Assembly: GCA_017455785.1 (NCBI GenBank)
Contig: JAFSYZ010000154.1
Coordinates: 1-20,250, forward strand
DNA: 20,250 bases
Source: Candidatus Methanomethylophilaceae archaeon
GTDB taxonomy: Archaea > Thermoplasmatota > Thermoplasmata > Methanomassiliicoccales > Methanomethylophilaceae
Reading direction: 5' to 3'
The number at the start of each line of letters is the position of its first letter. Positions within the stretch are counted from its first letter, which is position 1. Below are positions 17,851 through 20,250 of the stretch, in pieces. Below the pieces are notes generated by a model. The model ran no database searches, was not told the DNA's origin, and saw only the letters and a program-made list of their open reading frames with translations. A program made the translations under genes and the position numbers.

Positions 17851-18891
17851 TCATTCCACTTTGTATCTGAGAAGTGCCGCGAAACCGCCTAACGATGCCA
17901 ACTGTTTGCCTGCATCATGCTGTTCAGAGACTACGATCACATTCCCTTTCTGCGATTCGGTATCCCTTATCATCTTGTCGTAATCGCCGTCACGGAGTTT
18001 GGAGTCCAGAATCAGCAGCGTCTCCACAGCACCGGATTCGCATGCGTTGGATACTTGGGCCGTACCGTAGGTGGCGAGACCGTTCTTCCCTATCTCGGAC
18101 ATCACCTGTTCGACGGCTTCCATCTCTATGCCGACCCTCGATTCCCTGAGCAGGTTGGAACCCAATCCCTTCTTCATGAGCTCATTGACACCCTGCATCC
18201 CTGTCTGTCCTGTGTGGTAAACGAAAACCTTCGAGAAAAGTGAAGGATCCCTTTGCTTACCGTCATCCACCAGCAGTTCCTTCTCGAATCCCGGGCCTAG
18301 AAGCACCAACGGCATGTCAGGTTCCATCATAGGTCTGATCTTGGAGATGATCTCCCCATGATAATCACCCGCATCACCTTTGGTATCGTACTGCTTACCG
18401 CTGCGTGATGACCTTATGGTGGTCACCTCCTTCAGTCCGGACTGCCTCATCATCGCTATGGTGGCCTCGTCCTGGTCCAAGGAAACGAAGACGATACGGG
18501 GTTTCTTCGTATCGTTCACGGCACGTTGCAGCCTCTCCTTCTGGGATTCCTTCCATTTCTTCTTTGATATGGTGAGATTGTCCCCGACCTCGATCATCAG
18601 CGTATGGTGCTGACCTATGTCCTGGGGCCCGGTCTCTATCGTTCCCAGCATCTTGATCCTCAAATCGTCCTCTGAGAACTCGATCTTCTCCAACCTTATC
18701 CCGAGGGTCATCCTCTTCTTCTCGGTACGCTCGGCACGGATCTTGTCGTTTGCCTTCTCCTCCCTTCTAGTCGTAGAGGCGGTGACAAGGTCCCCTAACT
18801 CCACCACATTGTACAGGTGCCAGATGTCATCATCCGTCTCGATCCTGATGCTGATGCTGTTGTCGGCAGGGTTCTGTCCGAGAATGCGCAT
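17851..18891 (-). CDS. pelA: Pelota, mRNA surveillance / ribosome rescue factor
   Basis: Archaeal Pelota (Dom34), 346 residues, normal length. It enters the A site of stalled ribosomes with its GTPase partner (aEF1A in archaea) and, with ABCE1, splits them. Three eRF1-type domains can be placed: an N-terminal Sm-like domain (about 1-125, opening MRILGQNPADNSISIRIETD and carrying a basic ASTTRREEKANDK loop), a central domain (about 130-255, with PRIVFVSLDQDEATI and the GDYHGEII region) and a C-terminal domain (about 260-346, with ATYGTAQVSNACESGAVETL). It lacks the GGQ motif of release factors, as expected for Pelota. This is the strongest single indicator that the DNA is archaeal. It is divergent from the Cys-rich gene, with one TATA element exactly between them. 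Confidence 0.96.
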   Translation of the reverse strand: MRILGQNPADNSISIRIETDDDIWHLYNVVELGDLVTASTTRREEKANDKIRAERTEKKRMTLGIRLEKIEFSEDDLRIKMLGTIETGPQDIGQHHTLMIEVGDNLTISKKKWKESQKERLQRAVNDTKKPRIVFVSLDQDEATIAMMRQSGLKEVTTIRSSRSGKQYDTKGDAGDYHGEIISKIRPMMEPDMPLVLLGPGFEKELLVDDGKQRDPSLFSKVFVYHTGQTGMQGVNELMKKGLGSNLLRESRVGIEMEAVEQVMSEIGKNGLATYGTAQVSNACESGAVETLLILDSKLRDGDYDKMIRDTESQKGNVIVVSEQHDAGKQLASLGGFAALLRYKVE

Positions 18892-18941: not shown

Positions 18942-19400
18942 ATGGCGTTGTCCTATATCTGCGGTTGTTGCAAGAGGAAGCACACCCTTCCGCTGAAGTC
19001 CATGTTCGGAAAGGAAGAGGCCCCTGAATTCTGCAAGGATTGTATGACGGAGGTCACTTGTCATGCGTGTGGAAAGAAGTTCATCCCTTGCGAGAACCCG
19101 GATGTGCGCGTCTGGAGGGATGATGACGGTCTCGTCAACAGGTACAGCTGCTGTGAGGATTGCTTCAAGCAGAGACAGGTGACATGCCACAAGTGCAGGG
19201 AGATGTTCCCCGCGGAGCAGGCGTTCGAACTGGGCGGTTACCTCTACTGCTCGGAATACTGCCGCGATCATCTGAAGTGCGAATGGTGTCATCTGGAGTA
19301 CGACCGTGAGGGATGCTTCAGCGACAAGTTCTGCAGCCCCAACTGTCAGCTGCAGTACTACAACATAACCGACGACAAGAGAAGACGTATGTTGCCCTGA
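18942..19400 (+). CDS. Cys-rich protein with four zinc-knuckle-like modules
   Basis: A 152-residue protein with 20 cysteines (13%), not assigned to a named family. The cysteines fall into four modules: C7/C10 with C31/C34; C40/C43 with C71/C74; C82/C85 with C103/C107; C113/C116 with C131/C135. The last two have the CxxC-n-CxxxC spacing of treble-clef, LIM-like or MYM/TRASH-like fingers. C9, C50, C70 and C125 are extra. Each module would hold one zinc ion. There is no signal peptide or membrane segment, so it is probably cytoplasmic, and the lysine/arginine-containing ends (DDKRRRMLP) may contact nucleic acid. It is divergent from pelota and shares the promoter region, hinting at a link with translation or RNA, but that is inference. 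Start ATG follows the TATA at leaderless distance. Confidence 0.85.
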   Translation: MALSYICGCCKRKHTLPLKSMFGKEEAPEFCKDCMTEVTCHACGKKFIPCENPDVRVWRDDDGLVNRYSCCEDCFKQRQVTCHKCREMFPAEQAFELGGYLYCSEYCRDHLKCEWCHLEYDREGCFSDKFCSPNCQLQYYNITDDKRRRMLP

Positions 19401-19511: not shown

Positions 19512-20250
19512 ATGGCAACTAACTTTTTGGTCTTCGGGGACGGAACCGTTCTTGAGGGGACTGCCTTCGGGTACGAAGGGGACTCCAAGGGAGAGGTCGT
19601 ATTCACTACTAGCATGGATTATCAGGACACATTCACGGATCCTGCGAATCACGGTAAGATGGTCATTTTCACATACCCTCTGATCGGTGATTACGGAATA
19701 ACTGCTGCATATGATGCATTGAAGGCATGGCCCAACGGGGTCATAGTACGCGAGTACTGCAAGCAGCCTTCCGAGATGTATCACGGCAAGGATATCGATA
19801 CCTACATGAAGGAGAAGCAGATAATCGGCATCTCCGGCATCGATACCAGGGCACTGGTCATCAAGATCCGTGAGAACGGTACGTTCAGGGGAGCGATCGT
19901 CAGGAGTAAGGACGATATAGCGAAGACCGTCGAGTGGTTGAAGGAATGTGACGGAAATCTGATCAACAAGGTCACACGTCAGGACATCAAGGCCGTTCAC
20001 AAAGGCAACAGCATCGAGGTAGGAATAATCGACTGCGGTGTCAAGCCGTTCTACCTCTGCGAACTGTTGAAGAGGTTCGATATTAGGGTCTTCCCCGCAT
20101 GCACACCCGCAGACACAATCCTCAAGAGCGGTGTCAAGGGCGTCATCGTTTCCGACGGACCAGGTAATCCCAATAAATCATGCGCCGTGGAGACCATCAA
20201 GGCGTTGAAAGGCAAGCTGCCGATCCTCGGTATCGGATACGGCGGAGGGG
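19512..20250 (+). CDS. carA: Carbamoyl-phosphate synthase small subunit, glutaminase site altered (3' end beyond edge)
   Basis: The first 246 residues of a CarA homologue of normally about 360-380. The small-subunit N-domain is clear: FGDGTVLEG (8-16), GEVVFTTSMDYQDTFTDP (27-44), TYPLIGDYGI (54-63) and SGIDTRAL (108-115), then the GATase fold with VGIIDCGVKPF and SDGPGNP (214-220). CarA normally hydrolyses glutamine and passes ammonia to CarB for carbamoyl phosphate, feeding pyrimidine and arginine synthesis. Here the nucleophile elbow, GICLGHQ in active enzymes, reads GIGYGGG (240-246): the catalytic cysteine position is G242. The residue equivalent to E. coli Ser47 is A45, and TSMTGYQ is shortened to TSMDYQ. 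The frame is intact, so this looks like a non-hydrolysing subunit rather than a pseudogene. carB is not in the window. Start ATG 19512 follows a TATA element. Confidence 0.93.
   Translation, partial: MATNFLVFGDGTVLEGTAFGYEGDSKGEVVFTTSMDYQDTFTDPANHGKMVIFTYPLIGDYGITAAYDALKAWPNGVIVREYCKQPSEMYHGKDIDTYMKEKQIIGISGIDTRALVIKIRENGTFRGAIVRSKDDIAKTVEWLKECDGNLINKVTRQDIKAVHKGNSIEVGIIDCGVKPFYLCELLKRFDIRVFPACTPADTILKSGVKGVIVSDGPGNPNKSCAVETIKALKGKLPILGIGYGGG

Follow-up and report, generated by a model that had tools for sequence, protein, structure and literature searches.

The window analysed here spans all of contig C25 (20,250 bases) of G000, the draft genome of a Candidatus Methanomethylophilaceae archaeon (1.76 Mb in 303 contigs, about 85% complete). 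At its 3' end lies carA2, a gene for a homologue of the small subunit (CarA) of carbamoyl-phosphate synthase (CPS) in which the glutaminase active site is lost. Together with the carB gene that follows it (carB2), carA2 probably encodes an ammonia-dependent, two-subunit CPS, the native, pelota-linked carAB of this genome, which stands beside a probably acquired pyrG-carAB of the glutamine-dependent type. The gene is complete, its catalytic triad is lost, its CarB is conserved, relatives are under purifying selection, the loss is repeated and an intact copy coexists with it; ammonia use, a CarA2-CarB2 complex, the direction of gene transfer and a link to habitat are our inferences.

The carA2 gene and its active site

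The features that make up carA2 in the window are the following.

19512..20250, + strand: carA2, first 739 bases of a gene for a CarA paralogue of 350 residues; the rest is on contig C153 (open frame and exact, unique overlap)
19527..19898, + strand: CPSase small-chain N-terminal domain PF00988 (Pfam, 136-137 bits)
20028..20243, + strand: class-I glutamine amidotransferase (GATase) domain PF00117, first part (Pfam, 36-39 bits)
20229..20249, + strand: degenerate nucleophile elbow GIGYGGG, active form GICxGxQ (frame and alignment)
20110..20250, + strand: 141-base exact overlap with contig C153, marking an assembly break inside carA2

From its ATG at 19512 the frame stays open for 246 codons up to the contig end, with residues 240-246 reading GIGYGGG. 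The final 141 bases of the window occur in exactly two copies in G000, this one and an inverted one at the end of C153, where the frame adds 104 residues beyond the elbow to reach 350 and its stop codon overlaps the GTG start of the 1072-residue carB2 directly downstream. PF00988 and PF00117 follow each other in CarA order, with the C-terminal half on C153, and carA2 is confirmed as a complete gene and a homologue of the CPS small subunit family. An earlier reading made from the letters of the window (the sequence-only reading) had placed the GIGYGGG elbow in an open reading frame and held that it did not look like a single sequencing error; both points are borne out by the exact, unique overlap, which carries the frame through the motif.

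In alignment, GIGYGGG of CarA2 stands where the other CarA of G000 has GICLGNQ and E. coli CarA has GICLGHQ, and two further motifs differ between the G000 proteins, with AQNRGF for SQNHGF and SSYYPEV for SQYHPEA. The Cys-His-Glu triad of the glutamine-hydrolysing CPS small subunit is incomplete in CarA2: the nucleophile Cys is Gly, the catalytic His is Tyr, and Glu is kept. The NHGF motif reads NRGF, the equivalents of S47, Q273 and H312 are also altered, and the Gly of the conserved GYQ is absent from the N-terminal domain, while the K202 and G359 equivalents are retained and Ser stands at that of P360. The E. coli numbers (S47, K202, G241, C269, Q273, N311, H353, E355, G359, P360 and others) and the roles of these residues are those we take to be standard, positioned through alignment with E. 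coli CarA; PDB entry titles mention the small-subunit variants C269S and G359F. The family norm is Asn or Ser at the E. coli His272 equivalent and Phe, Leu, Tyr or Met at the Leu position, so only the Cys and Gln changes in the CarA2 elbow are significant, and the four changed residues counted by the sequence-only reading reduce to these two. Past the contig edge, where that reading had proposed a look for the catalytic partners and carB, there are the Tyr in place of His, the Glu and an intact carB.

Loss of the catalytic Cys across the family

The family was represented by 102 genomes under 14 genus codes, of which 13 have an elbow that can be read. A PF00988 search found CarA in 94 of the 102 genomes, and 102 CarA open reading frames were collected, 97 of which show the elbow; the N-terminal piece of G010 and the fragment of G022 were omitted from the tree, the G003, G026 and G036 rows stop before the elbow, and the match in G046 was too short to collect. 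In the alignment with related archaeal CarAs that the sequence-only reading had suggested, Cys is present in 67/97 family elbows and missing from 30/97, the latter found in 29 genomes and 8 genera with Gly (15), Ala (10) or Ser (5) in its place, and it is kept in all 37 CarAs covering the elbow from the five other families of the order (one further row, L268, is cut before it). Among the 30 Cys-less CarAs, His is lost in 20 and Glu in 12. Outside the family, 47 of the 48 CarA loci found in a relatedness scan, which is not a random sample, keep Cys. The sole exception, in Methanobrevibacter (L182, GISLGQQ), has Ser for Cys with His and Glu kept and is either a separate, younger-looking case or an error.

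Two further observations concern single CarAs within the family. Cys is kept and the catalytic His lost in G032:C4 58062, G038:C28 2083 and G089:C47 24130, the last of which has also lost Glu, and these three are possible early stages of the same decay. In the single-contig genome G010, carA (C1 490851-491951, L122) is broken by one in-frame TAG, which could be read through as pyrrolysine in this pyrrolysine-using order or be a true stop.

To place the losses, a CarA tree of 110 rows was built by a quick method with the catalytic motifs left out. Cys absence needs 10 changes on this tree, at least 8 of them on starred (supported) branches, and forcing the 30 Cys-less rows into a single clade lowers the log-likelihood by 487 (approximately unbiased (AU) test, p 0.00076), which rejects one origin of the loss. 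A CarB tree, from the 61 carAB loci with a CarB of at least 900 residues, needs 8 changes, no fewer than 7 of which fall on starred branches. Because both trees were built quickly and contain long branches (G001, CarA2), the exact counts may shift. Judging from these trees, the glutaminase site appears to have decayed several times independently within the family, and by analogy with land vertebrates the relatives' losses suggest a repeated switch to free ammonia as nitrogen source.

The Cys-less genes are not without constraint. The ratio of nonsynonymous to synonymous substitution rates (dN/dS) is well under 1 in nine pairs of Cys-less relatives, so the tested Cys-less carAs are under purifying selection, and a modelled Cys-less relative is predicted to adopt a CarA-like fold. 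The CarB partners of Cys-less CarAs are likewise conserved. In G000, CarB2 retains 471 of the 485 CarB invariants, and the carA2 and carB2 frames are both open. A Cys-less protein is the sole CarA found in 11 genomes at least 90% complete, which retain two carbamoyltransferase-family genes. Given the dN/dS values, the CarB conservation and the sole-copy genomes, a family-wide pseudogene reading is not favoured. Position 261 of CarB1 was observed to be an invariant Gln in 37 partners of Cys-bearing CarAs and to be replaced in 16 of 24 Cys-less partners, a possible covariation with glutaminase loss in these alignments.

Annotation does not register the change. NCBI's cut-off for TIGR01368, the model for the glutamine-hydrolysing CPS small subunit, is 307 bits; the halves of CarA2, scanned separately, score 194 and 124 bits, and all four full-length Cys-less relatives scanned exceed the cut-off (317-382 bits), so that passing this model says nothing about the active site. 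Four Cys-less proteins bearing a source's name are called 'glutamine-hydrolyzing' (P0027, P0091, P0104 and P0121), and metabolic models of gut methanogens built on such names may be wrong at the CPS step. The contig records of the family are named Candidatus Methanomethylophilaceae, Candidatus Methanoplasma and Methanomassiliicoccaceae; the titles of Cys-less records point to horse faeces, a water-deer rectum and a roe-deer omasum (L126, L133 and L168), and termite-named Methanoplasma are among the Cys-bearing ones. According to the available text of PMC7824343, the family is roughly equivalent to the host-associated clade of its order. Genus g10, in which Cys is kept in 6/6, has one or more member genomes apparently from sediment, and the clade is therefore not confined to the gut. 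Our literature searches, which mostly left out subscription journals and so give a weak negative, found no report of Cys-less CarA in archaea among the matches listed, and the available part of PMC13260591, on Thermococcus carbamoyl phosphate, has nothing on it.

The wider glutamine metabolism of these genomes differs from case to case. The other class-I glutaminases read in G049, G053, G054, G059 and G071 keep Cys (one PF00117 match in G059, L243, was not identified); from their motifs we take them to be of GuaA, HisH, PurQ, CobB/CbiP and PdxT type. Genus g9 shows no general loss of glutaminases, as Cys is kept in the other GATases read there. In G024 and G001, CarA is the only PF00117 protein found. 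A glutamine synthetase domain was not found in G006, G001, G024 and G025, where only Cys-less CarAs were found, and was present in the other 26 of the 30 genomes searched. The glutaminase and glutamine synthetase patterns point to two settings that may exist, one of glutamine-making genomes that spare glutamine at this step and one of genomes that perhaps no longer make glutamine. A PyrG match was absent from 22/22 single-copy Cys-less genomes compared to 31/59 single-copy Cys-bearing ones (Fisher p 1.4e-5) and, at 90% completeness or more, from 11/11 compared to 15/28 (p 0.007); among the 22 is G017, where the contig breaks off within carB and a tandem intact copy could be missed, whereas G006, with its two rows, is not counted. 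A paired comparison on the tree did not support a link between Cys loss and pyrG absence (median p 1), and we do not claim one. A CTP synthase match (PF06418) is missing from 65 of the 102 family genomes, including the single-contig, 98-99% complete G010, G013, G049 and G054.

The intact carAB of G000 and the competing explanations

A second, intact carA, which the sequence-only reading had named as evidence against itself, is present in G000 on contig C289 (GICLGNQ, SQNHGF, QYHPEA), where it lies with a carB divergently from pyrG. G000 therefore need not depend on ammonia, as it probably also has a glutamine-dependent enzyme. The idea of an ammonia-using CPS with the logic of vertebrate CPS I survives as the best reading of the enzyme but not as a statement about the organism; it fits better the 11 sole-copy genomes.

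The pyrG-carAB block (G000 C289 1753-7846, L045; also L207 and L208) recurs in G062 and G064 at 73-79% DNA identity, and the DNA match of G000 to these genomes is confined to it. In G062 and G064 the block adjoins a glutamine synthetase gene (PF00120) and a gene that we take, from its first residues, to be glutamate synthase, and in G064 presumably GlnK/Amt-like genes, named in the same way, lie near it. The block, common to two genera, is a possible mobile cassette for glutamine metabolism. On the trees its CarAs (support 100) and its CarBs (support 99; the G062 copy is not in the CarB tree) cluster with G010 and G016, both of genus g6, and its owners, G000 and G062/G064, belong to genera g1 and g9, not g6. 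The Cys-less copies of all three owners adjoin a pelota-type gene, which in the window lies upstream of carA2 together with one other reading frame.

17851..18891, - strand: aPelota/eRF1-like gene, 346 aa (Pfam eRF1_1, eRF1_3)
18942..19400, + strand: Cys-rich 152-aa open reading frame between pelota and carA2, with no Pfam match at 1e-5 and not needed for the CarA finding

For 13 of the 14 genera, one or more genomes have a pelota homologue near carA, the exception being g2, with carA at the contig start, and CarB2 groups with G006 (support 99, CarB tree), as expected of a native copy. The pelota linkage and the g6 grouping of the intact copy point to the Cys-less gene as native and the intact carAB as acquired, probably, on this placement, from a relative of genus g6. 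In g6 itself (G013, G021), Cys-less and intact carAB stand in tandem, with the Cys-less one next to pelota. Foreign contamination was considered for C289 and is not favoured, given that its GC is close to that of the window contigs and that the tetranucleotide profile of its flank comes closest, of the 19 other segments compared, to those of C153 and the window's first half, although misbinning is possible. A C289 flanking gene was uninformative as a placing marker, with matches in 3 of 30 genomes and a strong one only in G000. By a narrow preference, we read the history as at least eight origins of an obligately or preferentially ammonia-dependent CPS by CarA decay, after which at least three genomes (G000, G062 and G064) regained the glutamine type through pyrG-carAB, with both enzymes working side by side.

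Several points weigh against an ammonia-dependent carA2-carB2. The intact carAB means that carA2 and carB2 need not be essential in G000, where only one OTCase-domain gene was seen. The end branch of CarA2 is the second longest in the CarA tree (1.07), CarA2 holds only 31/38 N-domain and 34/47 GATase invariants, and the dN/dS pairs are of relatives, so relaxed constraint in CarA2 is possible. Arguments from a closed tunnel rest on relatives, since CarA2 keeps the K202 and G359 equivalents. Among the 30 Cys-less CarAs, 7 retain both His and Glu and 7 have a Cys three residues on, which leaves a small chance of a moved nucleophile, and failure to find a gene in draft genomes counts for little. 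The long branch, the lost invariants and the intact carAB would all suit a decaying duplicate made redundant by the C289 genes, in which the loss of the active site is mere decay. We consider this unlikely: CarB2 is conserved and both frames are open, purifying selection is seen in the relatives' pairs, the 11 sole-copy genomes have no other CarA found, and it is the intact copy that looks foreign and the Cys-less one that sits at the native pelota locus.

CarA2 might instead serve as a docking platform that takes ammonia from another enzyme (glutaminase, asparaginase or deaminase) and not from solution, a quite improbable arrangement in our view. The fold and N-domain are conserved in relatives despite the lost catalytic site, and some such genomes encode glutaminases of HisH, GuaA and PdxT type whose Cys is intact. 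In many Cys-less CarAs, however, the tunnel-mouth equivalents of G359, P360 and K202 are variable or carry a charge, a pattern that gives no sign of a retained channel, and in G024 and G001 no PF00117 protein other than CarA was found; of the neighbouring genes, only pelota was considered. That glutamine is still hydrolysed through another nucleophile is less probable again. A Cys at the E. coli His272 equivalent (7/30) or a Ser at the Cys position (5/30) could be candidates, but GIGYGGG of CarA2 has neither, the catalytic His is lost in 20/30, and human CPS1, with Ser for Cys, is described as unable to use glutamine in the available text of PMC4655335. That assembly or sequencing went wrong where the contig ends, as a motif stopping one base short of the edge might suggest, carries almost no weight: the 141-base overlap with C153 is exact and unique, the frame continues through it, which rules out an edge artefact, and 28 other genomes, of which G013, G049 and G054 are single contigs, contribute 29 more Cys-less CarAs.

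Proposed mechanism and known counterparts

In an ammonia-dependent carA2-carB2, CarA2 would keep its fold and, presumably, its docking role with the glutaminase chemistry lost, and CarB2 would use bicarbonate, two ATP and free ammonia entering from solution to make carbamoyl phosphate, while the C289 pyrG-carAB cassette would supply glutamine-dependent activity in G000. CarB makes carboxyphosphate, carbamate and carbamoyl phosphate in turn, with ammonia normally tunnelled from CarA (PMC6022934, available text), and E. coli CPS with a blocked or perforated tunnel is reported to have normal activity on external ammonia (PMC4655335, available text). The equivalents of K202, G359 and P360 are changed in many Cys-less CarAs, and this, with the loss of Cys and usually of His, fits an enzyme fed from solution. 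Stability, regulation or a better Michaelis constant (Km) for ammonia are candidate roles for which CarA2 may be retained.

A glutaminase-dead CPS is already known; what is notable here is how often the loss arose. The switch of CPS from glutamine to ammonia is a textbook event of vertebrate evolution, and here it seems to have been repeated with two separate genes, intact and broken versions occurring within genera and sometimes within one genome. These are natural replicates for asking what purpose a subunit with a dead glutaminase still serves and by what route CarB receives ammonia.

Among known systems, glutamine-dependent CarAB (CPS II, E. coli) has the catalytic Cys and His that CarA2 lacks. 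Methanobrevibacter smithii, a gut archaeon, has a small ammonia-type CPS, a 41 kDa dimer equivalent to just the two synthetase domains (PMC6022934, available text), which does without CarA, whereas carA2-carB2 is a full CarAB with a dead CarA. The NAD synthetases are another amidating family that varies between glutamine and ammonia, according to the part of PMC3376133 available, but they are a different enzyme with a nitrilase-like glutaminase fold. CPS III of Alcolapia fish and CPS I of frogs show a convergent shift from glutamine to ammonia; as described in the available text of PMC7657897, Alcolapia and two frogs retain the triad but have lost residues that bind glutamine, whereas the archaeal CarAs lose the triad. 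Vertebrate CPS I (human CPS1) shares with CarA2 a small-subunit moiety with a replaced nucleophile. It differs in being one fused, mitochondrial, NAG-dependent chain of the urea cycle, compared to two overlapping archaeal genes, and the archaeal triad was lost by other substitutions and several times. The best reading, by analogy, is that CarA2-CarB2 would work like vertebrate CPS I without being one.
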